Of a DNA stretch of 18,506 bases, positions 1,030 to 18,001 are shown one piece after another. The notes under the pieces are model-generated. The model was not told where the DNA came from, searched no databases, and saw only the letters and a program-made list of their open reading frames with translations. This DNA is from Acidobacteriaceae bacterium. Its GTDB lineage: Bacteria; Acidobacteriota; Terriglobia; Terriglobales; Acidobacteriaceae. Within the stretch, counting starts at the first letter, position 1. Each line of letters begins with the position of its first letter. The DNA is taken from NCBI GenBank assembly GCA_030044455.1, contig JASHVU010000060.1:1-18506 (forward strand), written 5' to 3'. A program made the translations under genes and the position numbers.

Positions 1030-1071
1030 AGCTGTCAGCCAGAAGCTAAAAGCTAATAGCTATTAGCTGCC
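1030..1071. repeat. Tandem heptamer array, 6 units (AGCTAAA type)
   Basis: Six consecutive 7-base units fit the pattern AGCYNNN (for example AGCTAAA and AGCTAAT) without slippage. The array ends at 1071, one base before the tdk stop codon (complement of 1073-1075). The 18 bases AGCTAATAGCTATTAGCT inside it (1051-1068) are a perfect palindrome that could form a hairpin in the RNA of tdk. The same heptamer family recurs at 5749, 5903, 9586 and 17552. Confidence 0.9.
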
Positions 1072-1072
1072 T

Positions 1073-1681
1073 TCAGTGCGGCTTGCCCGGCAGCACAAAG
1101 TGCTCGGCGCAGCGCGGCTCGTAGGCGTCGCCAGGAACTTTGATCGGGCTGTCGTACGGTGCTGGCTGGCCGTCGATGAGACGTTGCGAGTAGAGCGCCC
1201 GCTGGCCGCAGGTGCAATAGGCTATGCACTCGGTAATGTTTCCGCCGTATGCGTTCACCAGCCAGTTCAGAGTTAGCATCTCGCCGAACGGTATGGCGCG
1301 GAAGTCGAGATCGAGCCCAGCGACGAGCACGTCGTGATTGCTGTCGAGCAGGTGCCTGCTAAAGAGGAAAAGATCCGTAACAAACTGGCCTTCATCGATA
1401 GCGATGCACTCCACGCGCTTGCCAATCTCCTGCTCTTTATCGGCGATGGCGTCAAGCACCTCCCATGGATTCAAGGAAGGGAATTCAAGCGCCTTGCAAC
1501 TGCCGTGGCCATTGGGATTGCGGCTCTCCACCATTCCGGGACCGCCCTTGGTGTCATCGCTGGGCTTGAGCACCATCACGTATTGTTTGGCGTACTGGCG
1601 GCGCATTTCGGCACGACGCAGCAGTTCCGCAGTCTTGTTGCTTCTCATCGGCCCCAATAGCAATTCGAGCTTACCCGGCAA
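1073..1681 (-). CDS. tdk: Thymidine kinase, type II (TK1 family), TTG start
   Basis: The 202-residue product matches bacterial type II thymidine kinase, which phosphorylates thymidine with ATP in the pyrimidine salvage pathway in the cytoplasm. Visible landmarks are the P-loop GPMRSNKT (10-17), IDEGQF (95-100) with the likely catalytic base E97, GLDLDFRAIPF (122-132), and the lasso/zinc region with C156, C158, C191 and H194. Length is normal for the family. The start is TTG at 1681-1679: a good Shine-Dalgarno GAGGGAG lies 8 bases upstream, the P-loop is in its usual place near the N-terminus, and the nearby ATG is in another frame. Oddities: the Walker A glycine before lysine is Asn (N15), and the first zinc pair is CxC instead of the usual CxxC. 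The fold assignment is secure; whether catalysis is normal is less certain. Confidence 0.88.
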   Translation of the reverse strand: MPGKLELLLGPMRSNKTAELLRRAEMRRQYAKQYVMVLKPSDDTKGGPGMVESRNPNGHGSCKALEFPSLNPWEVLDAIADKEQEIGKRVECIAIDEGQFVTDLFLFSRHLLDSNHDVLVAGLDLDFRAIPFGEMLTLNWLVNAYGGNITECIAYCTCGQRALYSQRLIDGQPAPYDSPIKVPGDAYEPRCAEHFVLPGKPH

Positions 1682-1768
1682 CGCGTTTTCTCCCTCATCT
1701 TGATTCTTGCTTCAGGAGTTTCATCATAACGCGTGGAGATGGGTGGCAGTGAGCCTGCGGAGCGACCC

Positions 1769-3541
1769 TTACTGCGCGGCCTTCATCAGCGCGTCCACTT
1801 CGGCCTTCAACACTCCGCAGGCACCGAAGAAGCGCATCAGATCGCCCGAGAGCGGCTGCAGGGCCGGCCGCGAAGAATGCGTATCGGCCGGCTGCAAGGC
1901 CGGCCCCGAAGAACGCAGATCGACCCGCTCAAAAGCCGGCGGGACCGCAGCTCGCCAATTGGCCCGAATAGCCCCCGAACCCGGCAACGACACCATGCGC
2001 AGTTCGCCGCCTCCCTGGGCGTCGAGGATAAGCGTGGTGAGCTTGCGGGCCATATCGAGAGGAAAGCTTTCGGCCACGAATACCAGTTTCCCGCGAACTG
2101 TAATCACCACCGGACCTTCGCTGGTTGAGTAAGTTTCTTCAACGGTGCCATCCATTGAGGGCGCGGTAACCGATGCCGAGGTATCGAGGTGGACGTTGGA
2201 GTATTTGCGGCCCAGATTGTCGGCATACATCTTGGCAAAGCCATTGGCCGAAGCCGGGCTCTTCCACACCGAAAGGTAGAAGAGGGCGAGGGATTGGGTG
2301 CTGTCTTGTTCGGCCGGGGTAGTGGCGCTGCGCAACTGCCCTGCCCAGTAAATGCCGCCGTTCCAGGCCGGCGTCAGATCTACGGCTGCCGAGTCGCCGC
2401 CAAACAGTTCGGCCAGGATTTTTAGATCGAGCTGGCCCACCTGCCCAATGTCGTATGGCTTGTAGAGCTTGTCGGTAATCGGATGGAAGTTGGGCAGCAG
2501 GGGAATTGCGGGCATTTGCTTCTGCTCGTAGACGCGCGGGTTCATGATCTCCCACGTTGAGGTTGGCGGACGGTCGAGAGTCCCGGCAAAAGCTGCAGCC
2601 TTCCCCTGGTCCATCCAGATATCCTGCTCAAAGCTCAGTCCCTCGCTATAAGGAAAGAGCATCGACTCGGAAAGCAGCAGCGGCGCGCGCGCCATCACTG
2701 GCGAGTTCTCCGATGAGGTCATCTGGTCCTTGAGCCGCTCCATGATTTCGGGGTCCTTCACCAGGCTCTTGCCCAGCGGCTTCAGCACGTAATCCATCAT
2801 GACCGCGGTTGCCTGGCCCTCGGCCACGGCGTCGCGCGCAGTGTCCATCTCGTCGCGCGCCAGGTGATCCTGGTCGCCTGCCGAGTCGGTTGAAACATCG
2901 TCCGGGGTCTGATCGTCCCACTTATCAAGGTCGCTGTGCTGGTCCTGCAGGGCGTGGGTCAGCTCGTGGGCCAGCACCGGCTTCTGCTCGTCGGCGTCAA
3001 CCCAGTCGAGCAGATTCACGGTCTTGGTTTTGGAGTCGTAGTATGCCTCAATCTGCTCCTTGAGCAGCGCCAGCAAAAACGGCTTCAGCTCAAAATCGCG
3101 GTCGAGCAGACCGAATTTCTTGAGCACGATCTCGTCGCGTTCCAGGCGCTTGGCGCTCTCGTCATCGTTGAATTTCTCTTCCAGGTAGGCTTCAACCGCC
3201 GCACGGGTGGTGAGCTGGCGCTTGACGGTGCTCTTGATCGGCAGCCCGGTTTCGTCGGAGGCGAACTTCATGAGCTCGTCGACCAGTGCGAAGAGCTGTT
3301 TGGCTTGTTCGGGAGTGATGTGTCCGGAGCTTTTGCTATCAGCAGCCTGGCTGGAATCGGGGCTCCCGGTCCCGGGGTTCTTTTGAGACCCGGCGGCCGG
3401 AGCAGAACCAGTAGAACCCTGTTGCGCAAACGCCGCGGCCGGAACGCCCAGACCCGCAATTACCACCGCCAGACATACCGCCAGAGTATCCAGCAGGCCG
3501 TGGCGGGTCCTGCGTCTTGCTGCTCGTTCCAATTGGCTCAT
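1769..3541 (-). CDS. Secreted zinc-metallopeptidase-like protein (HExxH), 590 aa
   Basis: I do not recognise a named family, but the product has a classical zincin signature: HELTH at residues 192-196 with a candidate third ligand E241 in AVAEGQA, about 45 residues on, which resembles a gluzincin arrangement. Residues 15-39 form a signal peptide or N-terminal anchor (cleavage near AFA/QQ), followed by a low-complexity Ser/Gly/Pro/Ala linker to about residue 72, so it should act outside the cytoplasm. The start is ATG 3541-3539, with AGGAG about 5 bases upstream; a longer open frame reaches 3805 but would precede the signal peptide and overlap the divergent ygfZ gene. The C-terminal 60 residues carry a 12-residue tandem repeat (1853-1924) that looks like an inserted repeat. 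ygfZ is transcribed divergently, 150 bases away. The proteolytic activity is inferred from motif only. Confidence 0.8.
   Translation of the reverse strand: MSQLERAARRRTRHGLLDTLAVCLAVVIAGLGVPAAAFAQQGSTGSAPAAGSQKNPGTGSPDSSQAADSKSSGHITPEQAKQLFALVDELMKFASDETGLPIKSTVKRQLTTRAAVEAYLEEKFNDDESAKRLERDEIVLKKFGLLDRDFELKPFLLALLKEQIEAYYDSKTKTVNLLDWVDADEQKPVLAHELTHALQDQHSDLDKWDDQTPDDVSTDSAGDQDHLARDEMDTARDAVAEGQATAVMMDYVLKPLGKSLVKDPEIMERLKDQMTSSENSPVMARAPLLLSESMLFPYSEGLSFEQDIWMDQGKAAAFAGTLDRPPTSTWEIMNPRVYEQKQMPAIPLLPNFHPITDKLYKPYDIGQVGQLDLKILAELFGGDSAAVDLTPAWNGGIYWAGQLRSATTPAEQDSTQSLALFYLSVWKSPASANGFAKMYADNLGRKYSNVHLDTSASVTAPSMDGTVEETYSTSEGPVVITVRGKLVFVAESFPLDMARKLTTLILDAQGGGELRMVSLPGSGAIRANWRAAVPPAFERVDLRSSGPALQPADTHSSRPALQPLSGDLMRFFGACGVLKAEVDALMKAAQ
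1853..1924. repeat. 36-base in-frame tandem duplication inside the metallopeptidase-like gene
   Basis: Two adjacent 36-base units (1853-1888 and 1889-1924) match at 30 of 36 positions. Because 36 is a multiple of three, the host frame survives and encodes two 12-residue copies (core SSxPALQP) near the C-terminus. Each unit contains the self-complementary core GGCCGGCC or a close variant, so it may be a palindromic dispersed element that entered a coding region. Confidence 0.8.
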
Positions 3542-3607
3542 CGATTCTCCTGTGAGCAGCTTCGAACCTCCGGGTGCCGGCCAACTACTCAAGTCTGTAT
3601 CCAAGGC

Positions 3608-3613
3608 TATAAT
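3608..3613 (+). promoter_or_regulatory. Candidate -10 box for ygfZ
   Basis: A perfect TATAAT lies 78 bases upstream of the ygfZ ATG, in the 150-base divergent spacer shared with the metallopeptidase-like gene. No convincing -35 hexamer is present at 16-18 bases, so this rests on the -10 match alone. Confidence 0.35.
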
Positions 3614-3691
3614 CAGGATGCGCTCCCGCGCCAAGCCGGTGCCAAAATTGGCAGGCAAATTTGTTCGCGGGACTGCGGAAAAGATCCCCCT

Positions 3692-4900
3692 ATGGCGGAG
3701 ACCGGCCTTACCGTGAACATACAGGCCACGGCGCTTTCTGCGATGCTGGAGACTGCCGGTACGCCGCGCACTCTTGTCGCGTATCGCGGTGTACTCACCC
3801 CACAACAGTTTGACGCTCCTTCAGCCGAAATAGCTGCGCTGGCTTATGGATCCGCCATTCACGACCTTGGCTGGCTAAGGCGCGTGGAGGTTCGCGGCCC
3901 TGACCGTTTTCGCTGGTTGAGCGGGATGGTGACCAACACGGTCAACGATTTGTTTCCCAACACCGGCGCATGGAACTTGGTGCTGAATGCGCAGGGCCGC
4001 ATCCAGGGCGACCTTGCGGTGTGGCGCGGGGGGGAAGAGCAATCGCCGCAGCGGCGCACGCCGCATCCGGATGCTGTCCGGAAGGGTGATCCCATGCTCG
4101 GCACGCCCTTTGCCGGCGAGTCGGGCCTGGAGCTGGAGATCGAAACGGGGCAGTTCGAGAAGCTGCTGGCGCACCTGAACCAGTTCATCATCATGGATGA
4201 TGTGGAGCTGGTTGCCCTGGGTGAAGAGTCGGCTTGCGGCGCCGGCGCTGAGACAGCCATTGGAGTGACCGGCCCGCAAACGGCCGAGGTTCTGGAGCGG
4301 CTGGGCCTGCCATTCTTTTCGAATACCATGAAGAGCGCCCGGGTTGGGTGGAACGGCTTAGAGCTCACCATCGAACGCAAGCACGGCGTCATTGTGCCCC
4401 ACTGCGTTTTTTGGGTGCCGTGCGCGGGCCTGCCCAAGCTCTGGTCCTGCGTCCGCACCGCGGGCGCCGTGCCGGTGGGCTGCGCTTCGCTTGAGTCTTT
4501 CCGGATCGCCGAGGGAATTCCGCTCTACGGCATCGATATTGTGGAACGGGACTTGCCTCAGGAGACCGCGCAGTCGCGGGCGCTCAATTTCAACAAGGGT
4601 TGCTACCTTGGCCAGGAGATTGTCGAGCGCATTCGCTCGCGAGGCAACGTGCACCGCCACCTGCGCCACCTTGAGATTGACGGGCCGGTGCCCGGGCCGG
4701 GAACCGAGCTGAAGCTTGCGGACGGTTCGCAGGCGGGGCATGTGACCAGCGCTGCCGAGCTGCCGCTTGAGAAAGGCCGGCGCGCTTTTGCCTTGGCTAT
4801 GGTGCGGGCCGAAGCCGAAGTGAAAGAGGAGCTTCTGCATTACTCCTCGGCCAGTGGCGAGGGAACTGCTCGCATTCAGGCCTCGCATCCTGTGCTGTAG
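3692..4900 (+). CDS. ygfZ: YgfZ/GcvT-fold tetrahydrofolate-binding protein
   Basis: The 402-residue product carries the YgfZ signature KGCYLGQE at 302-309 (C304 is the conserved cysteine) followed by RSRGNVHRHL. YgfZ proteins share the aminomethyltransferase (GcvT) fold, bind folate, and assist maintenance or assembly of certain Fe-S enzymes in the cytoplasm. The N-terminal lobe is seen in LRRVEVRGPDRFRWLSGMVT (62-81), the LNAQGRIQGDL strand (98-108) and FIIMDDVEL (165-173). A stretch of about 25-30 polar residues (113-142, Gln/Arg/Pro rich) sits between strands that are normally close together, so it appears to be an insertion. ATG 3692 is chosen because earlier in-frame codons overlap the antisense gene; only a weak GGAAAAG precedes it, and GTG 3713 is an alternative. 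It begins a plus-strand run continuing to ribF. Confidence 0.92.
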   Translation: MAETGLTVNIQATALSAMLETAGTPRTLVAYRGVLTPQQFDAPSAEIAALAYGSAIHDLGWLRRVEVRGPDRFRWLSGMVTNTVNDLFPNTGAWNLVLNAQGRIQGDLAVWRGGEEQSPQRRTPHPDAVRKGDPMLGTPFAGESGLELEIETGQFEKLLAHLNQFIIMDDVELVALGEESACGAGAETAIGVTGPQTAEVLERLGLPFFSNTMKSARVGWNGLELTIERKHGVIVPHCVFWVPCAGLPKLWSCVRTAGAVPVGCASLESFRIAEGIPLYGIDIVERDLPQETAQSRALNFNKGCYLGQEIVERIRSRGNVHRHLRHLEIDGPVPGPGTELKLADGSQAGHVTSAAELPLEKGRRAFALAMVRAEAEVKEELLHYSSASGEGTARIQASHPVL

Positions 4901-5001
4901 CGTGCAGCTGAAGACTTCCACGGGGCCCGGCGCGGTGCGAGTTCAGTTGCGCCGGTTCGATTGCCTCCCTGGCGATATACCGCCTCCGGCGACGGTTTGC
5001 C

Positions 5002-5113
5002 GCCTCCCGTAGGGAGGCAAGGAGTTTAGCCCAGGACGAAGTCCTGGGTAGGCCGGGCAAAAACCGGCAGCCCCGTAGGGGCGCTGTGATCCGGGAGGGG
5101 TTTCAACCCCGGA
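5002..5113. repeat. Cluster of GTA-loop and related hairpins
   Basis: Five short inverted repeats follow one another in the ygfZ/DUF1844 spacer: GCCTCCC-GTA-GGGAGGC (5002-5018), CCCAGGA-CGAAG-TCCTGGG (5030-5048), GCCGG/CCGGC (5052-5068), GCCCC-GTA-GGGGC (5070-5082) and GGGGTT-TC-AACCCC (5097-5110). Stems are 5-7 bases and perfect. None is followed by a T-run, so they do not look like simple intrinsic terminators. The composition suggests a compound dispersed repeat; the 253-base spacer holds no gene that I can see. Confidence 0.8.
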
Positions 5114-5153
5114 CCCGTCGCGTAGCCAGCGCGAAAAATGGGAAAATAGATTC

Positions 5154-5747: not shown

Positions 5748-5748
5748 A

Positions 5749-5783
5749 AGCAGCTACTAGCCGCCAGCTTCTAGCTGCCAGCT
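5749..5783. repeat. Tandem heptamer array, 5 units (GCCAGCT type)
   Basis: Five 7-base units (for example GCCAGCT and TCTAGCT) start one base after the DUF1844 stop codon. Read on either strand they contain AGCT cores, and they belong to the same family as the arrays at 1030 and 5903, in a different phase. Confidence 0.85.
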
Positions 5784-5789
5784 GGAAAC

Positions 5790-5831
5790 AGGGGAAACCG
5801 GCCCCTGAACCTGAGTCCGCAGTCGGCGGAC
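5790..5831. other. Two small hairpins after the DUF1844 gene
   Basis: AGGGG/CCCCT (5790-5794 with 5802-5806) and GTCCGC/GCGGAC (5815-5820 with 5826-5831) follow the DUF1844 gene and its heptamer array. The second is followed only by CTTT. They may weaken read-through or may be remnants of dispersed repeats; the rest of the spacer up to 5902 shows nothing recognisable. Confidence 0.4.
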
Positions 5832-5902
5832 CTTTAACTGGGGTCGGCGTAACATTTGCCAATGCCACTCCAACGACTCAAGGCATCAACCCTCCCGCAC
5901 AA

Positions 5903-5986
5903 AGCTAAGAGCCAATAGCTAAAAGCCAGAGGCTTGAAGCTAGAGGCTAGGAGCTAGAAGCCGGGAGCTAGAAGCTGGAAGCTGAC
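5903..5986. repeat. Perfectly phased tandem heptamer array, 12 units, abutting a start codon
   Basis: Twelve consecutive 7-base units (consensus AGCTAGA, general pattern RGCYNRR) run without a single slippage and end at 5986, exactly one base before the ATG of the MBL-fold hydrolase. The last two units contain GGAAG, the only Shine-Dalgarno-like sequence upstream of that start, so the array may supply the ribosome binding site. Confidence 0.92.
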
Positions 5987-6784
5987 ATGCAAGCCACGCT
6001 TACATTCTTAGGCACCGGGACATCGATGGGAGTTCCTACGCTGGGCTGTGCCTGCGCGGTGTGCACGTCGACCGATCCGCGCGATTGCCGGTTGCGGCCT
6101 TCGGTGCTGGTCTCCTGGAATGATCCGGAAACCCAATCCCAACGCACCGTGGTCATTGACACAGGTCCCGACTTCCGCGAGCAGGCGTTGCGCGCGGGCA
6201 TCGCACACGTTGATGCCGTTTTCTACACGCACGCGCACGCTGACCACGTTCTGGGCATGGACGATCTGCGCCCGGTGAGCTTCACTGCCGCAAAAAAGTC
6301 GGGGCCGATTCCGCTCTACGCCTCGCTCGATACGATTGCAATTCTGATGCGCATCTTCGACTACACCTTTTCGCCTGACGCCACCTACATCAACCGCGCG
6401 CGGGTTGAGCTCAAGTCCCTGGCCGCGCACACGAGCGTGCATGGCGCGGACTTCATGCGGATTCCGGTGATGCACGGCGATTTGGAGATCAGTGGCTTCC
6501 GGTTCGGCAGCGCCGCGTACCTGACCGATGTGAGCGCAATTCCCGAGCCTAGCCTCGAGCTGCTCAAGGGGGTTGATGTGCTGGTGCTGTCGGCGCTGCG
6601 CCACAAGCCGCACCCCAGCCACGCAACGCTGGAGCAGGCCTTGGAGTGGGCCCGGAAAATTGGCGCGCGGCAAACCTGGTTTACGCACATCTCGCACGAC
6701 CTTGGCCACCAGGAGACCAACCGGACGCTGCCCGAAAATGCGCGCCTGGCATGGGACGGGTTGAGCGTGCCCGTAACACTATGA
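5987..6784 (+). CDS. PhnP-like metallo-beta-lactamase-fold hydrolase
   Basis: The 265-residue product opens with FLGTGTSMGVPTLGCACAVC (7-26), the N-terminus typical of PhnP-like MBL-fold phosphodiesterases with a Cys-rich structural zinc site (C21, C23, C26, C34). The MBL metal motif is THAHADHVLG (H82, H84, D86, H87). Further ligands fit PVMHGD, YLTDVS and HISHDLGH, so the di-metal site looks complete. PhnP cleaves 5-phosphoribosyl 1,2-cyclic phosphate, but most members of the wider family lack phn context and have unknown cyclic phosphodiester substrates; there are no phn genes here. It is cytoplasmic by lack of a signal peptide. Translation is probably coupled to ribF, since its TGA overlaps the ribF ATG (ATGA 6781-6784). 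The start codon touches a heptamer array. Confidence 0.9.
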   Translation: MQATLTFLGTGTSMGVPTLGCACAVCTSTDPRDCRLRPSVLVSWNDPETQSQRTVVIDTGPDFREQALRAGIAHVDAVFYTHAHADHVLGMDDLRPVSFTAAKKSGPIPLYASLDTIAILMRIFDYTFSPDATYINRARVELKSLAAHTSVHGADFMRIPVMHGDLEISGFRFGSAAYLTDVSAIPEPSLELLKGVDVLVLSALRHKPHPSHATLEQALEWARKIGARQTWFTHISHDLGHQETNRTLPENARLAWDGLSVPVTL

Positions 6785-7800
6785 GCGCGCAGCCGGGTTC
6801 CACCCGCATCTTTCGTTCGATTGGCCAATTGCCGGCCGGGTTCGGCCCCACGGTAGTGGCCATCGGCAACTTTGACGGCGTGCACCTGGGCCATCGTGAG
6901 ATTCTGTCCTCAGTTGTGGCCGATGCGAAGGCGCGCAACGCATTGGCCGTCGCGGTCACCTTCGATCCTCATCCTGAGCAATTCCTGCGCCCCGACCACG
7001 CGCCGCAGCTCATCACGCCGCTCGATGAACGGTTGCGGCTGCTGGCGGAAACCGGCGTGGATGCGGTCATGGTGCTGCGTTTCGACGCCGCACTGGCTGG
7101 CTTGGCGCCGCGCGAATTCGTCGAGAAGATCCTGGTTGCGGCCCTCAACACAAAAAGCATTCATGAGGGCGAGAACTTCCGTTTCGGGCGCGGTGCAACA
7201 GCCGGCGTTCAAGAGCTTGCAGTCTTCGGCCGCGAATTTGGATTTGAAGTGAGCGCGCACCAGGCGGTGCAGGTGCGCGGGCTCGAAGTTTCGAGCTCGG
7301 CGATTCGCGCCCTCGTTTGCGCCGGCGACATGCGCCGCGCCCGCTGGATGCTGGGGCGACCGTTCACCGTGCTGTCAACGCAGGCGCGCGGGCGCGGCGT
7401 GGGCACGCGGCTCCTGGTTCCCACTGTGAATCTTGCTGCATACAACGGTCTGCTGCCGGCGATTGGCGTTTACGTCACGCGATTGCGCGTAGCCGGTCAC
7501 GACTTTGATGCGGTGACCAACGTGGGTAACCGGCCCACATTTGAAGGTGTGGGCTTCGGCGTCGAGACGCACATTCTGAACTTCGAACCGGTCGAACTCT
7601 GCCCCACCGACGAAGACCTGCAGGTGGGGTCCCCGATCGAAAAACGCGAAAATACTCCGCTCGAACTTGAATTCTTGCTGCGCCTGCGCGAAGAAAGAAA
7701 GTTCCCGTCGCCCGAGGCGCTGAAGGCCCAGATCACGAGGGATGTGGCGCGAGCCAAGCGGTACTTCCAGTTGAAGCACCGTTCAATGAGGATTACATGA
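6781..7800 (+). CDS. ribF: Bifunctional riboflavin kinase / FMN adenylyltransferase (RibF)
   Basis: The 339-residue product makes FMN from riboflavin and then FAD from FMN in the cytoplasm. The N-terminal adenylyltransferase shows GNFDGVHLGH (29-38), TFDPHPEQFL (60-69), NFRFGRGATAG (132-142) and SSSAIRALVCAG (171-182). The C-terminal flavokinase shows PTVN (214-217) with the Mg-binding Thr, TNVGNRPTF (246-254) and VETHILNFE (261-269) with the likely catalytic E262. Length is normal. In the kinase domain the usual GR-x-LGFPTAN loop reads GTRLLVPTVN, slightly divergent. The start ATG 6781 overlaps the upstream stop by 4 bases, and a longer frame from 6646 would overlap the MBL gene. A decayed second copy of its last ~105 codons lies at 9274-9598. 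Confidence 0.96.
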   Translation: MSAQPGSTRIFRSIGQLPAGFGPTVVAIGNFDGVHLGHREILSSVVADAKARNALAVAVTFDPHPEQFLRPDHAPQLITPLDERLRLLAETGVDAVMVLRFDAALAGLAPREFVEKILVAALNTKSIHEGENFRFGRGATAGVQELAVFGREFGFEVSAHQAVQVRGLEVSSSAIRALVCAGDMRRARWMLGRPFTVLSTQARGRGVGTRLLVPTVNLAAYNGLLPAIGVYVTRLRVAGHDFDAVTNVGNRPTFEGVGFGVETHILNFEPVELCPTDEDLQVGSPIEKRENTPLELEFLLRLREERKFPSPEALKAQITRDVARAKRYFQLKHRSMRIT

Positions 7801-7883
7801 GCAGCATCCAGAAAACGCGCCGTAGCCCTGAATTGTAGCTTTCGTGGTTTGGTAACGGCAGCTATAGGCCGCACAACAAACAA

Positions 7884-7912
7884 CCCGGGCCGTCTGTATC
7901 AGGCGACCCGGC
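7884..7912 (-). terminator. Probable terminator of the TIGR03118 gene
   Basis: On the minus strand, about 30 bases past the stop codon, CCGGGTCGCC...GGCCCGG forms a stem of about 12 pairs with one mismatch and one G-T pair, closing a three-base loop. It is followed by a T-rich tract (GTTGTTTGTTG) at 7884-7874. On the plus strand the following bases are C-rich, so it is unlikely to terminate ribF efficiently. Confidence 0.55.
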
Positions 7913-7941
7913 TTGTCCCTCCCTCCTGAGTGTTTTGTCAA

Positions 7942-9003
7942 CTACGGCCTGAAGACGATTTTTGCGAACGTACCCGCCAACTCGGCAGTGCCAATTCCCT
8001 GGCCCACGGTGACGAAGAGTTCGTTTGCTGCTCCATTGGTCGTGTTTCCTCCACCGAAGGCAATGCCCCAGAGGTTGTTCAGAACGATTTTCTTCCCGTC
8101 CTGGTCCCTTATCGTTCCCACGAATCTTCCGGTAACTGGGTCAAACGCGTTAATGGTGCCTTCGACGGAATTGTTTGAAATCAGCAGGGTATTGCTCAGC
8201 GGTCCAAAATTGGGAGGAGCCGCGGCGACGCCCCAGGCCTGGTTGAGCGGCAGTCCCTGGATGAGTGTTTTCACGAAAATACCATTCTCGGTGAACAGGT
8301 CGACGTAACCGCCGGCGCCTACGTTCGGGACAGCATACGTTACGTAGACCAGTCCATTGATGTCCTGGATGCCGAATACTGAGAAGGTCGATGGGATCGA
8401 CGCATCACCAAACGACTTCACGAGTGTGAAGGTGCCGTCGTACATATCGATTTCATTGTTGGTGTTATCTGCCGCGTAGAGGAAATTCCCCGAGGCATTG
8501 CTGGTAATGGCCAAACCCGTATACATCGCCTTGTTGGCTGAGTTGTCGACCACGATCGTCGACTGGTTGGCGTTGACTCCCGGAGCCCACGCGCTGATGG
8601 TGCCATCCAGCGTGGCAAATAGGAAAGATGCTTTCTTGCCCTGAACCTGGAAATCTGTCGACGATCCGTTGTACACGATTCCAGTCGGCGTGCCGGGGCC
8701 GTTCAGGCCTGTCGGTTCGGTGGGCCCGTTTCCGGCGGTGGGAATCAAAACCCTGAGCGACTCTTGTGTCCCGGTGTCTTCATACAATGTCGACCAGCCG
8801 GTGTCGTTGTCGCTGATCCACCATGGGCTTGTTGCGCTTCGGGCCAATCCCCAGGGATTGGCCAGCAGTGGATCGATAGTCTTGGCTTGGCCGACCTGAT
8901 TCGAAACCAAATTGGTGATGCGATATTGTGCGTCGACCTGGGTCGAAACCATGAGAAGACCCAAGCCGAGGCACGCGGATACTACGGTCCTGCAAATTTG
9001 CAT
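7942..9003 (-). CDS. TIGR03118-family secreted beta-propeller-like protein
   Basis: The 353-residue product has an N-terminal signal peptide (residues 1-25, cleavage near VDA/QY) and then repeating beta-strand modules with motifs such as LANPWGLARS, NGLVYVTYA, AWGVAAAPPNFGPLSNTLLISNN and NLWGIAFGGG. This pattern is that of the uncharacterised TIGR03118 family, which resembles NHL/six-bladed propellers and is common in soil bacteria. It should be exported; substrate or partner is unknown. ATG 9003-9001 is chosen because GGAG precedes it by about 7 bases and the signal peptide follows directly; a start at 9033 is possible but less likely. A weak promoter (TTGATG, 17 bases, AAGAAT) lies at 9140-9112 on the minus strand. 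Sampled stretches are about 48-55% GC against about 63% in ribF, and the gene sits between ribF and a ribF remnant, both pointing to acquisition. Confidence 0.85.
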   Translation of the reverse strand: MQICRTVVSACLGLGLLMVSTQVDAQYRITNLVSNQVGQAKTIDPLLANPWGLARSATSPWWISDNDTGWSTLYEDTGTQESLRVLIPTAGNGPTEPTGLNGPGTPTGIVYNGSSTDFQVQGKKASFLFATLDGTISAWAPGVNANQSTIVVDNSANKAMYTGLAITSNASGNFLYAADNTNNEIDMYDGTFTLVKSFGDASIPSTFSVFGIQDINGLVYVTYAVPNVGAGGYVDLFTENGIFVKTLIQGLPLNQAWGVAAAPPNFGPLSNTLLISNNSVEGTINAFDPVTGRFVGTIRDQDGKKIVLNNLWGIAFGGGNTTNGAANELFVTVGQGIGTAELAGTFAKIVFRP

Positions 9004-9273
9004 ATTCGTTTCTCCTTTGCGAAGTCTGAACATTGGGGGGTCGAACCATTTGCGGGAATGGATGGATAGGGAGCCTTCCCTGAGTTGCTCTCAAAAGGTA
9101 GGCGGATCGCAATTCTTAGTTGTCAGGCGCTTGTCATCAATTTGCAAATCGTTGGCGTCCAAGCGGCATCAGCACAAAAATTCATATTGATTTCGCATGA
9201 AATGCAGTGCTTCGAATTGAGCGCTTGATTCAGCGGCCGCACCAGATCCTGCAACCGACATCGCCAATCGCGC

Positions 9274-9598
9274 CGACTGCGCGCAGTAGGGCGGCCGTGT
9301 GAGTGGGTGGCGAATGTGGGTAATCGGCCCGCGTTTTGAAGCCGTGGGTTTCTGCGTGGAAACGCGCAATCTCAGCTTCGCGCCGTTGGAGCTCCACCCC
9401 ACAGACGTAAACCTGTCCGTGGGGGCTCCGGTCCAAAAATGCGGAGAGACTTCGCTTGAGCTGGAATTTCTGCTGCAACTGCGCGGAGATCGCAAATTCC
9501 CGTCGCCGGAAGAGTTGAAGGCTCAGATTATGGAGGAGGTTACGCGGGCGAACAAATATTTCCACCGCGCCTCGAATCTGCTGAAAGCTAGAAGCTAG
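9274..9598 (+). pseudogene. Degenerate second copy of the ribF 3' end
   Basis: The translated stretch resembles the last ~105 residues of RibF: about 48 of 77 aligned residues are identical between FEGVGF...KRYF of intact RibF and FEAVGF...NKYF here. From 9274 the frame reads RLRAVG...VANVGNRPAF, matching RLRVAG...VTNVGNRPTF of RibF. An extra T in the run 9334-9337 then shifts the frame and creates TGA at 9337-9339. The downstream part is open from the other frame to TAG 9596-9598, which lies inside a heptamer array. Weaker similarity may reach back to about 9231 with small deletions. No start codon, adenylyltransferase domain or first half of the kinase is present, so no functional product is expected. 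It lies in the same orientation as ribF. Confidence 0.88.
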
Positions 9599-9606
9599 TA
9601 GCTGAG
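9586..9606. repeat. Tandem heptamer array, 3 units (AGCTAGA type)
   Basis: Three 7-base units (AGCTAGA, AGCTAGT, AGCTGAG) span the end of the ribF remnant and end 4 bases before the stop codon of the convergent penicillin-binding protein gene. The remnant's apparent TAG stop is part of the repeat. Confidence 0.8.
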
Positions 9607-9610
9607 TTTT

Positions 9611-12574: not shown

Positions 12575-12755
12575 GCGGGGCAAGAGCGGGACGGCAGCGC
12601 GGAATCGGGAGCGGGAACGGCAGCGAGTTGGCGAGTCGGCCAGTCAGCGGGTCGTGCCAAGCGGAAATACTTTCGACGGCGGTGGATTCTTCCCAGCGTA
12701 GACGCCCGGAGTAGAACGGTTTCCGGGCTCCATGGTCAGGCGGCGTTTCGCTAGG

Positions 12756-14408
12756 TCATTGCGCTTTGGCAGGCTGCAATTGTGATTTCAGGATTTCTTC
12801 GAATGCGGCCTTTCCTGCTGCGTGCGGAATCGGCGTCTGTTCAACTTGCGATCCCAATTCCTGCACCATGGGCGCGTCGGGCTGATAAGCAGGCCATAAG
12901 GGAAGCTCTGGAGCGGACGGCTCGCCGGTCTTCGCAAACTCGGTCCAGTAACCGATGAGGGTGTTCGATAGCTGAACATCCCCGGGACTCTTCACCCAGC
13001 TTGTCCAATACTTCCCGCTAAGGAACATGCTCTCCTCGCTGTGGAATGCGCCGAGTTGGGCGAAAACTCCTGCGCCAACATTTGTGAACAGGTAAACATA
13101 AGCGCGTTGGCCGTGGGCAGTCACCTCGCGAGCCAGCAAATTTGCGCCGAATCCAAATTCATAATCCGTGTCCATGGCAAGAAATGCAGTTGGAACCTCG
13201 GCGTCGGTATTTGCCGGGTATGCGGCAAACACCTTGTCGGCATCATGGTGGAACTCGCGCGACAGCCAATGGCGGTACTCGCCCACCGTCTTGGGGCGGT
13301 ACGATTTTTCCCCCACCAACGGGCTGGCAAAGATTGAAACCTCATCGGCATTGCTTCCCACCATGACAGGAGCCTTCACCTGCTGTCCCTGAGAAAAGAC
13401 GATGGCAGGCTGTTGTTTCAACACCCACCCGTCGATGACCGGATTCAAGTCGAGATCCCTTTCCTTCGTGGCCTGGCGCACAAGCTCATCCGCGGGCACC
13501 GCTCTAAGTTTCTTCAAAACGTCGGGACCGTTGCCGAGTCCCAGATCCGCAGCGAATTGCGCGCCGCTTGCCTCCGTTTCTGCAAGTCGGGGCACGAGCG
13601 AATCGATGCAGACCCCACTCTGCATGATCGCGCGTTGAAACAGGCCATCGGCAAGCGGTGACGCCATCAGATCGCAAATATCAAGCGATCCAGACGAGGC
13701 CCCGAAGACGGTGACTCGATGGGTATCGCCACCGAACCGGTCGATGTTGCGTTGTACCCACTTGAGCGCGGCCATCTGATCGAGCAAACCGTAATTTCCC
13801 GAAGCGTGATTGGGCGATTCCGCGGTGAGTGCGGGGTGCGATAAGTAGCCAAGCACACCCAGGCGGTAATTGATCGTCACCACCACCACGCCGTGGGTCG
13901 CCAGCTTGGGCCCAAGCGGCGGCCATTCCTGCGAACCCTCCACGTTTCCGCCTCCATGGATCCACACCATTACCGGCAACCGGGCGCGCCCGCCCAGGTT
14001 CGGCGTCCAGACGTTCAGGTACAGGCAGGCCTCGTCGGTCGACATCTGTTTGCGGCCGAGCATCTCAGGTAACCATGTGCTGGGGAGCTGTGGACATGCA
14101 GGTCCGAATTGATCGGCCAGGCGAACGCCTTGCCAACTTGCCGGTGGTTGCGGAGGCTGCCAGCGTAAGTTGCCCACCGGAGGGGCGGCGTACGGAATTC
14201 CAAGAAAAGCCGCGTAGCTGGGCGACGAGCCAAATTGACCGCCTTCGAGGATCCCGTCCTGCAGCGCTACGCGGGGGCGATTTTCCGCCGCCGCGTGTAC
14301 CAATTGTGCCGCGGCAAAGACCGCTAGAAGCAATGCCAACATCCCAACCCGGCAGTTTTGCCGCTGGGCTGCATGCGGCGCCGTTCTCGTACTACGCAGG
14401 ATATGCAT
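12756..14408 (-). CDS. Secreted type B carboxylesterase (alpha/beta hydrolase, PnbA-like)
   Basis: The 550-residue product belongs to the type B carboxylesterase/cholinesterase family, which hydrolyses ester bonds of varied substrates. A signal peptide covers residues 1-41 (hydrophobic 21-38). The oxyanion-hole motif HGGG is at 151-154. The catalytic triad can be assigned as S238 in FGASSGS, E356 in GSNADEVSIF and H456 in GAFHSEES. C105 and C128 fit the conserved first disulfide (EACLYLNV). The nucleophile elbow reads GASSG instead of the usual GESAG but keeps GxSxG. ATG 14408 is chosen because AAGGCGG precedes it and the signal peptide follows; upstream ATGs at 14435 and 14552 would add a non-signal-like leader. 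Substrate is not predictable; the nearby arabinose genes make a role on esterified plant polymers possible but unproven. Confidence 0.92.
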   Translation of the reverse strand: MHILRSTRTAPHAAQRQNCRVGMLALLLAVFAAAQLVHAAAENRPRVALQDGILEGGQFGSSPSYAAFLGIPYAAPPVGNLRWQPPQPPASWQGVRLADQFGPACPQLPSTWLPEMLGRKQMSTDEACLYLNVWTPNLGGRARLPVMVWIHGGGNVEGSQEWPPLGPKLATHGVVVVTINYRLGVLGYLSHPALTAESPNHASGNYGLLDQMAALKWVQRNIDRFGGDTHRVTVFGASSGSLDICDLMASPLADGLFQRAIMQSGVCIDSLVPRLAETEASGAQFAADLGLGNGPDVLKKLRAVPADELVRQATKERDLDLNPVIDGWVLKQQPAIVFSQGQQVKAPVMVGSNADEVSIFASPLVGEKSYRPKTVGEYRHWLSREFHHDADKVFAAYPANTDAEVPTAFLAMDTDYEFGFGANLLAREVTAHGQRAYVYLFTNVGAGVFAQLGAFHSEESMFLSGKYWTSWVKSPGDVQLSNTLIGYWTEFAKTGEPSAPELPLWPAYQPDAPMVQELGSQVEQTPIPHAAGKAAFEEILKSQLQPAKAQ

Positions 14409-14570
14409 CGACTCGCCGCCTTGCGCGTTCTGCATTACATTGCGGATTCCGGCGCCTGCGGACGGAGTGAATCTGAAAATAGACGGGCCCCAGCGGCGTT
14501 GAAAGAATTTGTCGCTGACGGAGATGGCGCAGGGTGTGTGAAGGCCCAGCATAAGTGCGATCTCACCGGG

Positions 14571-14588
14571 CAGGAGTCGACTCTCCTG
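14571..14588. other. Palindromic hairpin downstream of the S41 gene
   Basis: CAGGAG and CTCCTG flank TCGACT, forming a 6-pair stem 25 bases past the stop of the S41 gene and upstream of the esterase. There is no T-run, so it may be a weak terminator, an operator or chance. The rest of the 204-base spacer (14409-14612) shows no gene or clear promoter. Confidence 0.35.
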
Positions 14589-14612
14589 GACCGCCAGTCG
14601 TGAACAAATGCT

Positions 14613-15863
14613 CTATGCGCCTTTGGCCTTGAGCAGATTCAGGGCCTTGTCGAGCATCTCATCGGTGTTCGAAGGCGTGATGCCTTCGTCGATCTCGTCC
14701 TGCGGAGAGGCCACGGCAACATTCGGCGTCACCGCGTCATCCTGAATCTTCTTGCCGTCAGGGCCCTGGTACTTGGCCACAGTCAGGAAGAGCGCCGCGC
14801 CGTCGGGCAGGTCGATGGTGCGCTGCACCGAACCTTCGCCGAAGGTTCTTTCACCCACCACGTCGCCACGCTTCAGGTCTTCGATTGCTGCTGCCGTCAA
14901 CTCCGGCGCGCCATAGGTGCCGCGGTTCACAATCAGCGCAACCGGCGCATCGGTGATGAACGTTGCCGGGTCGGCTGTGAAGGTCTTGGTGGGATAGGTC
15001 TGGCCTTGCAGCGTGGCCAGGGTGCCCTGCTTGATAAAGAAGTTGGCCAGCCTCAGTCCCTGGTCCAGATCGTTGCCAGTGCAATCGCGCAGGTCGAGCA
15101 GGACTTTGCGACCCGTGCCCGCCTGCTTGATCTTTGCGGCGATCTCATCCACGCGAGCAGCGGTCAGCACTCCCGGCTTGAGGTAGAGGATGGTCGAGTT
15201 TTCATACTGCTGCTCGTCCAGAGCTGGCGGCTCGACAACCGCGCGCGTAAGCTCAACTTTCTCAGGATCGGGCTTGCTCTGGCGAATCACCGTCACGTCA
15301 ACCGTGGAGCCCGGCTTGCCCTCAAGCATCATCCGAATCATTGCCAGCGGAATGTCGTGCGTTGACTTGCCGCCGATCGATTCGATCACATCGCCATCTG
15401 TGATATGGCCGCCATCCAGCAGCTTTTCTTTGTCGGCGGGCGAGCCCGGGACCACGTTGACAATGGTCGCGTACCCAAAACGCTTTGAGATGGTGATGCC
15501 CTCTTGCGCATCGCCGCCGGTGGGGTGATCTTTGTAGAGCTTGTATTCGTCTGCGGTCAGGTAGCTTGAATCGGCATCGAGCGATTCCAGCAATCCATGC
15601 AGCGCACCCGTGGTCACGTCGCTGATGTTGGGGTCAGTCACATAGTCGCTCTGGACCTTCTGAAGGACCTCAGCGTAGACGCGCATCTGGTTGTAGGCGC
15701 CGTCCTGCTCGTTACCGGCATGCACGCCAAACCAACCGAATTCGCCCAGGGCAAATCCGAGGCCGAGCGAGGCGAAGATCGCCAGGGAGAGGACGAAGAC
15801 GAGACGCTGAACGAATCGTGACACGGACACCACCGGGGCAGGCCTCAAGGGGAAGCAGGCCAT
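14613..15863 (-). CDS. S41/CtpA-family protein with PDZ domain, predicted catalytically dead
   Basis: The 416-residue product has the architecture of a carboxyl-terminal processing protease: N-terminal membrane anchor or uncleaved signal (about 19-40), a helical segment with YNQMRVYAEVLQKVQSDYV (57-75), a PDZ domain (about 120-195, with DGDVIESIGGKS) and an S41 core (about 205-385). The core is well conserved in VALIVNRGT (308-316) and VVGERTFG-GSVQ (335-347). However, the nucleophile stretch that normally reads GTASASE is GTYGAPE (315-321), so the catalytic Ser is G318, and the Lys of FGKGSVQ is E343. The 25-residue distance equals that between Ser452 and Lys477 of E. coli Prc. It is probably a periplasmic binding or regulatory pseudoprotease. 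The start ATG 15863 has AGAGG close upstream. The ribulokinase gene ends 73 bases upstream. Confidence 0.88.
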   Translation of the reverse strand: MACFPLRPAPVVSVSRFVQRLVFVLSLAIFASLGLGFALGEFGWFGVHAGNEQDGAYNQMRVYAEVLQKVQSDYVTDPNISDVTTGALHGLLESLDADSSYLTADEYKLYKDHPTGGDAQEGITISKRFGYATIVNVVPGSPADKEKLLDGGHITDGDVIESIGGKSTHDIPLAMIRMMLEGKPGSTVDVTVIRQSKPDPEKVELTRAVVEPPALDEQQYENSTILYLKPGVLTAARVDEIAAKIKQAGTGRKVLLDLRDCTGNDLDQGLRLANFFIKQGTLATLQGQTYPTKTFTADPATFITDAPVALIVNRGTYGAPELTAAAIEDLKRGDVVGERTFGEGSVQRTIDLPDGAALFLTVAKYQGPDGKKIQDDAVTPNVAVASPQDEIDEGITPSNTDEMLDKALNLLKAKGA

Positions 15864-15936
15864 ACACCTCTATAGACGCAATGATACCTGAACCGGCTTT
15901 CGGTTTGACCAGAAACGACAGGAAATGCCGCATTTT

Positions 15937-17520
15937 TCAGGCTGCGGCCATGACTTCCGCGGCAATTTTGCGCAGCTCCGGCAGGATATTGCCGAGTGCG
16001 GCAGCCGGAGCCGTGCGCGTGCCCAGCGTGAAGTAGGCGGCGCGGTAGAGCGGGTAAATCCTTTCGTAGGTTGCAGCGGCCACAGGGTCGGGAGCAACGG
16101 TGGCAAAGTCAAGGCAGAGCGCAGCCTGAGCATCTTCGACCGTGGAATATTTGCCCGTAGCAACCAGCGCGAAGATGCCCGATCCCAGACTGGTGGGAAC
16201 GCCTGCAGGTACCAGAACCGGTTTGCCCAGCACGTTGGCGTAGACCTGGTTGAGAACCGCGTTGGACTGCGGAATGCCGCCGCCGTTAATCACGCGGTCG
16301 ACGGGAACGCCGTGTTCGGCCATGCGTTCCAGAATAATGCGAGTGTGGAAAGCCGTTCCTTCAATTGCGGCGAACAGTTCGTCCTGGGCGGTATGGACCA
16401 GGTTCCAGCCGAAGGTGACGCCGCCAAGCTCCGGATTCACCAGCACGGTGCGATCGCCGTTGTCCCAACTCAGGCGCAGCAGGCCAGTCTGGCCGGCACG
16501 GTAGTCTTCAAGGCCTTTCGAAAGTTCTGCGACCTTAACGCCGGCGCGGTTCGCAATGGCCTGGAAAATGTCGCCGGTGGCTGAGAGCCCCGCTTCGACG
16601 CCAGTGTATCTGGGATGCACGCTCCCGGGCACAACGCCGCAGACGCCGGGAATGAGCTCGGCTTGTTTGGCCATAGCGACGATGCAGGTCGAGGTGCCCA
16701 CGACGTTCACCACGTCGCCCTCCTTGCATCCGGCTCCCAGCGCATCCCAATGCGCATCGAAGGCGCCTACGGGGATGGGGATGCCGGCGCGCAGGCCCAT
16801 CTCGCCGGCCCAATACGGGGAGAGATGGCCGGCCAAGTGATCCGAGGTCAGGTACTCGCCTTCGAGCTTGTCGCGCACCCCGTCGAGCAGCGGATCGACT
16901 TTGGAGAGGAACGATTGCGACGGAAGCCCGCCCCACTTCGGATTCCACATCCACTTGTGACCCATGGCGCAAACGCTTCGCTTCACCTTTTTGGGATCGG
17001 TGATGCCGCAAAGCGCGGCTGCCACCATGTCGCAGTGCTCAAAGGCAGAGGCGAACTGCGCACGCTTGCCGGGATTATGGCGCAGCCAGTGCAGCAGTTT
17101 GGCGAATCCCCATTCATGCGAGTAGACGCCGCCGCACCACTCAATGGCCTCCAGATTCTCCTTGTGAGCCAGAGCCGTGATTTCCTGCGCTTCCTCATGG
17201 GCGCGATGGTCGCACCAAAGGTAATACTCGCTGAGCGGCTGCATCGCCGAGTCGACAGGAACCACGCTCGAGCCCGTCGTGTCGAGCGCAATGGCTTCAA
17301 CCTGATGGCCGTTGATGCCGGCGTCTGCGACCGCGTTGCGGGTTGCGGCCACAAGCCCACGCATCTGGTCCTCGTGCGCCTGTGTCGCATAGTCGGGATC
17401 CTCGCGTTTGCGGTGCAAAGGGTACTCTGCTACCGCGCTCCCCCTCCGCCCGTGCTCGCTGTCGATGATCGAGACACGAACGCTAAGCGTTCCAAAGTCG
17501 ACTCCCGCTACGATGGCCAT
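15937..17520 (-). CDS. araB: Ribulokinase (FGGY family)
   Basis: The 527-residue product matches ribulokinase, which phosphorylates L-ribulose to L-ribulose 5-phosphate with ATP in L-arabinose catabolism in the cytoplasm. Landmarks are the N-terminal phosphate loop GVDFGTLSVR (6-15), ALDTTGSSVVPVD (78-90), substrate-region LWCDHRAHEEA (101-111), the catalytic aspartate D255 in GAFDAHWDALGAG (252-264), GTSTC (275-279) and INGGGIPQSN (411-420). DFGTLSVR and the W/C-D-H-R-A motif separate AraB from xylulokinase and glycerol kinase. The length is slightly below the ~566 of E. coli AraB. ATG 17520 is preceded by AGAGGA at a good distance. The gene upstream on the same strand encodes an L-fucose/L-arabinose isomerase family protein, supplying the preceding pathway step; the 472-base repeat-filled gap between them makes a simple tight operon unlikely. 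Confidence 0.95.
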   Translation of the reverse strand: MAIVAGVDFGTLSVRVSIIDSEHGRRGSAVAEYPLHRKREDPDYATQAHEDQMRGLVAATRNAVADAGINGHQVEAIALDTTGSSVVPVDSAMQPLSEYYLWCDHRAHEEAQEITALAHKENLEAIEWCGGVYSHEWGFAKLLHWLRHNPGKRAQFASAFEHCDMVAAALCGITDPKKVKRSVCAMGHKWMWNPKWGGLPSQSFLSKVDPLLDGVRDKLEGEYLTSDHLAGHLSPYWAGEMGLRAGIPIPVGAFDAHWDALGAGCKEGDVVNVVGTSTCIVAMAKQAELIPGVCGVVPGSVHPRYTGVEAGLSATGDIFQAIANRAGVKVAELSKGLEDYRAGQTGLLRLSWDNGDRTVLVNPELGGVTFGWNLVHTAQDELFAAIEGTAFHTRIILERMAEHGVPVDRVINGGGIPQSNAVLNQVYANVLGKPVLVPAGVPTSLGSGIFALVATGKYSTVEDAQAALCLDFATVAPDPVAAATYERIYPLYRAAYFTLGTRTAPAAALGNILPELRKIAAEVMAAA

Positions 17521-17551
17521 TTTTCTATCCTCTTGTTCTTAACGCGCGCCC

Positions 17552-17641
17552 GGCTGGAAGCGGTAGCCAATAGCCAGTAGCTAATAGCTATCAGCCAGAA
17601 GCTGTTCCCTGGTCTCTAATCCCTGGTTCCTGTTCCCTAGC
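17552..17641. repeat. Heptamer array switching from AGCTAAT-type to CCCTGGT-type units
   Basis: About eight AGCT/AGCC units (17552-17606, one of them 6 bases long) pass without loss of phase into five CCCTGGT-like units (17607-17641). This is the only place in the window where the two heptamer families are joined. It lies 31 bases upstream of the araB start codon, inside its likely 5' untranslated region. Confidence 0.85.
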
Positions 17642-17643
17642 CG

Positions 17644-17792
17644 CTTAGAATCTGTTGAAAAACTCACTCGAAGGCTCTGTTTTGAAAGGGCACGACTTTC
17701 AGCCGTGCCGATAACGCCAATTGAGACAGCGCGGCTTTAGCCGCTGAGGGAAGGTTTCGTGCGCGCGAATGAGTTTTTCACGACTTTCTTAG
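17644..17792. mobile_element. Small hairpin-rich element A with terminal inverted repeats
   Basis: The ends 17644-17670 and 17766-17792 are imperfect inverted repeats (21 of 27 positions match, core TGAAAAACTCA). Inside are two further hairpins: GGCACG/CGTGCC (17689-17709) and GCGGCT-TT-AGCCGC (17731-17744). It codes for nothing. Size and structure resemble a MITE or REP-derived composite; mobility is inferred only from structure and its position in a heptamer array. Confidence 0.6.
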
Positions 17793-17799
17793 TCCCCTG

Positions 17800-17961
17800 G
17801 AGTCTGTTTACAATCTCGCCCGGACGGCATTCTCACGCCCGCTAGGGCGGGCTACGCACTAATAGACGTTACTTTTCCCCAGGCTCACGCCTGGGGCGAT
17901 CGTCTATCGTCCGCCTTCGGCGGACTGATTGTTCAAAAAACGAGAGATCGTAAACAGGCTC
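17800..17961. mobile_element. Small hairpin-rich element B with terminal inverted repeats
   Basis: The ends match as inverted repeats over 18 bases with two mismatches (core CTGTTTAC, 17800-17817 against 17944-17961). Internal perfect stems are GCCCGC/GCGGGC (17837-17852), ATAGACG/CGTCTAT (17862-17868 with 17901-17907) enclosing CCCCAGGC/GCCTGGGG (17877-17896), and GTCCGCC-TTC-GGCGGAC (17909-17925), giving a cloverleaf-like fold. The 10 bases TCTTAGTCCC occur on both sides (17787-17796 and 17960-17969), as a target-site duplication would. No reading frame is supported. Confidence 0.65.
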
Positions 17962-18001
17962 TTAGTCCCTGACTCCCTTGGTCCCTAGTCCCTCAGTCCC
18001 C
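17961..18001. repeat. TCCCTAG-type repeat array overlapping the isomerase stop codon
   Basis: Five units containing TCCC recur every 7-8 bases (for example GTCCCTA and GTCCCTC). They continue the CCCTGGT-type array interrupted by elements A and B. The isomerase stop (complement of 17993-17995) and its last two codons lie within it. Confidence 0.75.

Follow-up and report, generated by a model that had tools for sequence, protein, structure and literature searches.

Heptamer arrays as candidate arms of intergenic hairpins at gene boundaries in Acidobacteriaceae

Arrays of 7-base units sit at gene boundaries in an 18,506-bp stretch of DNA (here the window: positions 1 to 18,506 of contig JASHVU010000060.1, assembly GCA_030044455.1) from an Acidobacteriaceae bacterium, which we take to be a soil bacterium. 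An earlier note on the window had described such arrays and their fit to start and stop codons. The main feature it overlooked is that arrays form inverted pairs bracketing spacers, and it also passed over their avoidance of divergent spacers. Together, the sequence comparisons suggest intergenic hairpins whose two arms are renewed together. We give a probability of roughly 0.5 to the reading that many of the arrays are arms of intergenic hairpins, the stem being most likely an RNA stem-loop in the transcript.

Polarity and inverted pairing of the arrays

The main array of the window lies between the genes for a DUF1844 protein and an MBL protein, on the plus strand. A left arm of YAGNNNN type (5751 to 5783; units CAGCTAC, TAGCCGC, CAGCTTC and TAGCTGC, then CAGCT) begins 3 bases past the DUF1844 stop codon, and a right arm of CTRNNNN type (5903 to 5986; 12 units, AGCTAAG at one end and AGCTGAC at the other) abuts the MBL start codon at 5987, the two forming an inverted pair around a 119-bp loop (5784 to 5902). 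The cores of the right arm run from 5903 to 5983 and the last unit extends to 5986; the array thus stands 3 bases from the MBL start by its last core and 0 bases when that unit is included in full, much as the earlier note had it. This start is backed by same-genus relatives, which align from residues 1 to 3, and among the 120 matches listed for the DUF1844 protein, the one organism name is that of a relative at 89% identity, Terracidiphilus sp. RNA of the whole DUF1844-MBL spacer is predicted to fold with a z score of -4.45, against -1.31 for the adjacent coding RNA used as a control. A scan of the window against Rfam returned no family at gathering score.

The 7-base step is specific. Three RGCY cores at period 7 (RGCY-N3-RGCY-N3-RGCY) occur at 22 window positions, compared with a mean of 0.175 and a maximum of 3 over 200 resamplings from a first-order Markov model; at any other period between 5 and 12, the same three cores match 0 to 2 times. 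When the co-directional spacers of two genomes were searched for any periodicity, 25 of 230 spacers in one and 9 of 106 in the other had period 7. Each other period from 4 to 15 was seen in at most 4 spacers, except for period 14 (13 and 6 spacers), which is twice 7. No matched coding piece showed period 7 in this search.

To describe the unit, 124 period-7 arrays were oriented solely by their nearest boundary. The most frequent phase-locked trinucleotide class was CTR (83 arrays), followed by GCY (67) and AGY (48), of which the last two both lie within AGCT. Several unit families exist (AGCTRNN, AACTGNN, CACTGNN and CCCTRNN), and CTR is common to all of them. When each array was assigned its best type, 79 were CTR, 16 were YAG, contrary to the side rule given below, and 29 were neither. 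The earlier note had singled out the palindromic AGCT core, by which any two units could pair; we rejected this core as the key feature, since units of the other families lack AGCT, follow the same rule and share CTR. Neighboring units have high identity in the core and an identity of 0.45 to 0.67 in the final two positions; the value of 1.0 in the CT columns follows from the alignment of the arrays on CT.

The arrays follow a side rule. Read from left to right, the left edge of a spacer carries YAGNNNN units and the right edge CTRNNNN units. In a 1.48-Mb set drawn from three genomes and partly chosen because it bears arrays, 22 of 27 multi-array spacers had the order RF, an inverted pair of YAGNNNN units (R) followed by CTRNNNN units (F), and none had FR; the remainder were RR (two), FF, RFRFR and FRF (one each). 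F arrays lie closer to the right boundary in 31 of 40 cases, and R arrays closer to the left in 38 of 44. Unsupervised typing likewise found YAG followed by CTR in 13 of 15 multi-array spacers, and by the same typing one-sided arrays obeyed the rule 52 to 12 (64 arrays).

Both the CTR signature, common across families (83 of 124 arrays), and the obedience of one-sided arrays (52 of 64) would also suit arrays of binding sites, in which a protein or RNA factor reads CTR or YAG every 7 nt, or CCCTGGT-type units form G-quadruplexes (G4), and pairing is a by-product. G4-forming heptamers are indeed described in the passages cited for Xanthomonas and Nostoc (PMC4692102). However, a conserved G-tract is lacking in AGCT, AACTG and CACTG units, and binding leaves unexplained why a spacer has the same family in both arms but another family in the sister species. 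We consider this explanation very unlikely.

The two edges of a spacer also match each other. Edge complementarity was scored for co-directional spacers 100 bp or longer in three genomes, with a threshold score of 14 or more. Opposite edges of the same spacer were complementary in 4 of 178, 4 of 81 and 13 of 92 cases, compared with 0.34%, 0.44% and 1.7% for edges from different spacers, a 6- to 11-fold difference, and likeness in direct orientation was rare (0 to 1.2%). Further, in all 24 AGCT-type pairs, whose loops are 28 to 119 bp long, the two arms have the same unit subtype.

Inverted ends, together with absence from most orthologous DUF1844-MBL spacers, could indicate a non-autonomous mobile element with terminal repeats built from heptamers, similar to a miniature inverted-repeat transposable element or a repetitive extragenic palindromic (REP) element. 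Yet no second copy of the window loop was found in its own genome (an assembly of 4.72 Mb in 813 contigs, of which the window belongs to contig 105), where other matches occur at E values of 0.9 or more only. In the sequence searched, none of the loops of 25 bp or longer from the 24 pairs recurs either, the matches being only 16 to 17 bp long. At one orthologous spacer (G004L331 and G010L299), the interior of the loop can be seen to be the same sequence in two species. A true dispersed repeat in the window (17642 to 17960) behaves differently, with 44 own-genome matches listed, one of them itself, and 40 of 93 candidates scored. Because loops are not repeated, the mobile-element explanation is largely refuted, and we regard it as highly improbable.

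Unique loops are also compatible with the main rival of the hairpin explanation, a purely mutational and functionless origin through heptamer slippage and fold-back template switching, with selection stopping growth at gene edges. The free variation of unit positions 6 and 7 points the same way, as does the finding that true partner arms reach just the 78th percentile of same-genome arms. Invariant CT amid variable flanks, in contrast, is unlike neutral slippage, though alignment on CT inflates both columns.

Spacer orientation and orthologous spacers

Array frequency depends on the orientation of the flanking genes. In an unselected set of 1.30 Mb, picked irrespective of arrays, arrays occur in 48 of 406 co-directional, 10 of 112 convergent and 4 of 160 divergent spacers. 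The difference between co-directional and divergent spacers is significant (P = 3e-4), whereas that between co-directional and convergent spacers is not.

Avoidance of divergent spacers would fit intrinsic transcription terminators that act in both directions and have stems made of arrays (AAAACAG...CTGTTTT), as would the T-rich outer flanks of the arrays (0.35 to 0.53 T at positions 3 to 7 on the stop side, 40 arrays), an enrichment that is weaker on the start side (0.15 to 0.50, 34 arrays). Intrinsic terminators have a GC-rich stem, a short loop and a T-tract, however, whereas the loops here span 28 to 119 nt, and a terminator scan called none at the arrays of the window. Arrays also sit between genes of operons, such as nuoA-nuoB and DUF1844-MBL, and convergent spacers are not enriched relative to co-directional ones. 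Termination as the role of these stems therefore seems to us decidedly unlikely.

At nuoA-nuoB, paired arms recur across species. We used 17 of 19 spacers (two were excluded for length, and a twentieth locus yielded none). Strongly matched arms (score of 12 or more) are present in 11 of 17, compared with 18 of 270 background co-directional spacers at the same score (P = 1.3e-8), and 14 of 17 reach a score of 10 or more. The unit family varies by species (TTCRCAG, AGGGTTC, CAGTGAT, CAGCTTT and others), and the right arm frequently ends in CTGGAG before the start codon. Arm complementarity averages 15.8 within species and 9.2 between species; none of 2,000 permutations gave a contrast as high (P = 0.0005; 17 spacers and species).

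A similar contrast is seen in 14 further orthologous comparisons, with 16.0 within and 9.7 between species and the within-species value higher in 12 of 14 (P = 0.002); one of the 14 (G010L306) is a false array produced by a stretch of Ns, and three belong to a single orthologous trio. In one example, the spacer carries CAGGGAC and GTCCCTG in one species and CAGTTCT and AGAACTG in the other. These cases suggest that some orthologous spacers keep the hairpin while both halves use another 7-base word. Array presence is itself shared between orthologous spacers, with an odds ratio of 5 (P = 0.016) for 48 pairs in which both spacers have at least 60 bp; before this length filter, the odds ratio is 7 (P = 3e-4, 90 pairs), a count that includes the false array, which is absent from the filtered one. 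Because the regions compared were partly chosen for their arrays, absolute array frequencies in them are not unbiased. Arms that share a species-specific family imply that the stem forms or formed, or that both arms arose in one event. The stem may have formed in DNA, with one arm templating the other, or may have been selected in RNA.

The DUF1844-MBL spacer varies more. It is 0 to 63 bp long in 16 of 23 genomes and 81 to 298 bp, as called, in the remaining seven, of which G006, G015 and G022 have overestimated lengths owing to a late call of the MBL start. Inverted pairs are clear in the window genome (239 bp), G013 (260 bp) and G016 (139 bp), and one-sided AGGGA-type arrays occur in G003, G004 and G022. 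Because the spacer is short or unpaired in most genomes, the window pair is best seen as a lineage-specific insertion or expansion. Of the suggestion that arrays expand until selection stops them, lineage-specific growth is supported (239 bp in the window against 0 to 63 bp in 16 of 23 genomes), but free expansion predicts neither the side polarity nor the frequent inverted pairs. As a separate observation, the DUF1844-MBL spacer of G019 (L236) has a TAGGGAC heptamer array together with inverted 6-mer repeats, GTGTGA and TCACAC, so that matched inverted arrays are not confined to period 7.

Lineage-specific presence and the large length differences at DUF1844-MBL (0 to 260 bp, perhaps more) are what a purely mutational origin would give, and near-exclusion from coding DNA (see below) agrees with it. 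On the other hand, arrays persist at the same spacers across species, with matched nuoA-nuoB arms in 11 of 17 spacers versus 18 of 270 in the background. A mutational origin of this kind is possible, and we hold it tentatively as the less probable account.

In the hairpin explanation, which we favor, arrays would lengthen and shorten through 7-nt slippage, and the arms would stay matched because a hairpin forms and one arm templates the other, because selection keeps the stem, or both. Frameshifts of 7 nt and lost gene function would halt array growth at gene edges, and promoters would exclude arrays from divergent spacers. Most likely, the stem would work in the transcript as an RNA stem-loop, intercistronic or at 3' ends, and would segment or protect neighboring messages and tRNA precursors. 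We favor an RNA stem-loop in transcribed spacers because divergent spacers are avoided, pairs lie between operon genes and between tRNA genes, and certain spacers retain their arms. The earlier note had raised a role in RNA ends, which is possible.

Several results weigh against this explanation. Many array-bearing spacers are one-sided (26 of 53, and 64 of 79 by stricter unsupervised typing), and convergent and divergent spacers together have matched edges in 2 of 249 cases. Within a subtype, the order of units is weakly matched between arms (P = 0.025, mean rank 0.57). The inverted pair at DUF1844-MBL is missing in most members of the genus. At nuoB-nuoC, arrays are present in 13 of 17 spacers but are mostly one-sided, with matched arms in 1 of 17; the contrast within and between species, for which 13 of 20 spacers were used and 7 excluded, is small (6.5 versus 5.5, P = 0.038), and direct likeness is higher (9.1). 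In 76 arm pairs from 578 co-directional spacers, G.U mismatches outnumber A.C mismatches on the sense strand by 162 to 118 (bootstrap interval, 0.52 to 0.63); since mismatched partner arms give a nearly equal excess (0.535 to 0.546), this does not demonstrate selection on the RNA sense. A terminator scan of the window called no terminator-like site at the arrays. Finally, Shine-Dalgarno sites are unchanged in frequency at array-bearing starts (22 of 39, versus 253 of 452 elsewhere), a result by which we also rejected loss or masking of these sites by right arms.

Gene boundaries in the window and beyond

The arrays belong to a genome-wide family. AGCTNNNAGCTNNNAGCT has 135 matches in the window's genome, against 1 for the reversed control, a control that is uninformative for the TCCCT pattern, which reads identically backwards. 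Matches to AGCTNNNAGCTNNNAGCT were found in 41 of 60 genomes, the window genome included, and matches of this type in 118 of 396 genomes sampled across the phylum, where they are very patchy and often number only one or a few.

Coding DNA makes up 78 to 84% of the bases in the sets examined and is nearly free of arrays. Only 3 of 96 AGCT-type arrays in the 1.48-Mb set are coding (the reversed control gave 1 array in total), as are 5 of 71 period-7 arrays, detected at lag 7, in the unselected set, where 82% of bases are coding. The median distance from an array to the nearest boundary is 11 bp for 84 arrays, compared with 36.5 bp for random placement within the same spacers (minimum of 2,000 trials, 24.4); these boundary counts rest on a home-made gene finder that placed some starts late. 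The two outcomes named in advance as fatal to a boundary link, no enrichment near boundaries or equal frequency inside genes, are therefore absent from the sequence analyzed. Boundaries need not be codons as had been supposed, since pairs also flank two tRNA genes: tRNA-Thr and tRNA-Gly on contig 69 of the same genome have arrays 7 to 11 nt away on either side.

In the window itself, arrays are present at every place where they had been described, with coordinates slightly corrected by reading the phased cores from the sequence. A one-sided array on the minus strand (1030 to 1068) follows the tdk gene, its last core 4 bases from the tdk stop at 1073; its units in the sense of tdk are YAGNNNN (CAGCTAATAGCTATTAGC...), which fits the polarity rule. 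An array of AGTCCCT type with 7- and 8-base spacing (17961 to 18001, minus strand) spans the isomerase stop codon (17993 to 17995), its sense-strand unit AGGGACT being of the YAG type on the stop side. With the DUF1844 stop and MBL start, these account for four of six window boundaries at which the proposed close fit to start and stop codons is seen. It is looser at the other two. A 3-unit array (9586 to 9603, minus strand) lies 7 bases from the PBP stop (9611) and reads TGA, AAAACTC and then YAG-type units in the PBP sense. An AGCT-type array (17565 to 17603, minus strand) reads CTRNNNN on the kinase sense strand toward the kinase start (17520), 44 bases off; its phased cores begin at 17565, and a start at 17552, given previously, is out of phase. 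Irregular CCCTGGT-type heptamers (17604 to 17641, no strand assigned) adjoin this array and read CAGGGAA or AGGGATT on the sense strand. That arrays never enter genes is true only as near-exclusion, since the array at 17961 to 18001 extends 9 bp into the isomerase open reading frame (ORF) and that at 9586 to 9603 overlaps the last codons of ORF 9299-9598.

AGCT arrays with inverted partners are patchily spread far beyond Acidobacteriota. In named genomes of other phyla, the 80 loci listed of at least 115 contain 91 long arrays, of which 25 are accompanied by an inverted partner, 3 by a direct partner and 63 by neither, each pair being counted once per long arm. Heptamers with inverted partners were seen in Selenomonadaceae, a Bacillota metagenome-assembled genome (MAG), Hymenobacter, Halomonas and a gammaproteobacterial MAG (L040, L045, L049, L061 and L067). 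In other acidobacterial families (G283, G156 and others; loci L339 to L350), we observed a different heptamer family with a palindromic core, TCGANNN, with 230 and 173 matches versus 8 and 0 for AGCT in G283 and G156; TCGA is the reversed control of AGCT.

Described heptamer repeats and other repeats of the window

Heptamer arrays are a known kind of repeat, given published precedents in Xanthomonas, cyanobacteria and Beggiatoaceae. In the passages cited, Rehm et al. (2015; PMC4692102) describe G-rich, G4-forming heptamers in Xanthomonas (GGGAATC) and Nostoc (GGGGA(C/T)T) that are intergenic, mostly less than 50 bp from ORF ends, with a strand polarity set by the side. They prefer aligned ORFs, are rare between divergent ones and have unequally conserved unit positions; inverted convergent pairs number 70/75 in two Xanthomonas genomes and are few in Nostoc, and 83% are shared in position between two species. 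Our arrays resemble them in the preference for aligned ORFs, the scarcity at divergent ones, the proximity to ORFs within 50 bp and the inverted convergent pairs. Unlike them, most of our units (AGCTRNN, AACTGNN and CACTGNN) have no tract of at least three G per unit in at least four units, conserved GGG being found only in the CCCTRNN family, and there are here several CTR-sharing families, with both arms differing by species at one spacer, unlike those repeats as described there.

The short tandemly repeated repetitive (STRR) sequences of cyanobacteria, to which the arrays had been likened in kind, are another fitting precedent. According to the passage cited (PMC2670836), STRR sequences usually have 7-bp repeats, are hairpin-capable and are found in a promoter region as well as between genes of an operon (hupS-hupL), and the hairpin has been proposed to raise transcript stability or to couple translation. 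The likeness extends to tandem 7-bp units in noncoding DNA and, through inverted pairs in co-directional spacers and the predicted fold, to a hairpin between operon genes. Our arrays differ in phylum and in the genome-wide pairing and polarity rule, which that passage does not describe; it gives no unit sequence with which to compare the earlier statement that the units differ. Similarly, TAACTGA repeats are reported from marine Beggiatoaceae, Cyanobacteria and Bacteroidetes (MacGregor 2015; PMC4679880), where, in the part cited, the arrays mostly point to start codons and the largest single class ends 1 nt upstream. They too are 7-nt arrays, and their unit fits NNCTRNN (as AACTGAT) in the same polarity as ours. 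In contrast to ours, they have one fixed unit, lie mostly at starts and form inverted pairs in 1 of 170 sets (PMC4679880). An AACTGNN family occurs here as well, compared with TAACTGA at the level of the unit family.

As far as these sources show, the new features are the CTR-sharing families in Acidobacteriota, a side rule that reaches tRNA genes and the joint difference of two arms between species; in the open-licence PMC literature, we found no publication on AGCT-type heptamers in Acidobacteria. Several bacterial groups thus carry unexplained heptamer arrays at gene ends. Our data suggest that the persistent feature at some spacers is the matched inverted pair and not the repeat, so that structure is separable from sequence, and two older proposals, a hairpin for transcript stability or coupling and mere slippage, become directly testable. 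If the arms are renewed jointly, this would also reveal a process that generates repeats in fixed steps of 7 nt. We know of no enzyme for such a process. An unlikely and bolder idea is a dedicated 7-nt repeat-writing activity, templated in a telomerase-like or hairpin-primed way, with the CTR/YAG signature, that would extend 3' ends at gene edges and periodically rewrite both arms with a new unit; the stem would be inherited and the sequence not, and one process would underlie the heptamers of Acidobacteriota, cyanobacteria, Xanthomonas and Beggiatoaceae.

The window also holds other repeats. ORF 9299-9598 is a remnant of a second RibF (flavokinase) C terminus; it is 60% identical over 89 residues to the intact RibF at 6781 to 7800, from which an unrelated opposite-strand gene (7942 to 9033), without a Pfam match at an E value of 0.001 or below, separates it. 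The multi-copy, REP-like island at 17642 to 17960, intergenic and 319 bp long, has CCCTGGT and AGTCCCT heptamers on its two flanks and consists of modules: its positions 16 to 119 have at least 42 further own-genome matches and positions 164 to 319 at least 1 (C218). Lastly, a palindrome-rich dispersed intergenic repeat lies at 4900 to 5150, and its core (about 5000 to 5100) has 11 other matches in the same genome.

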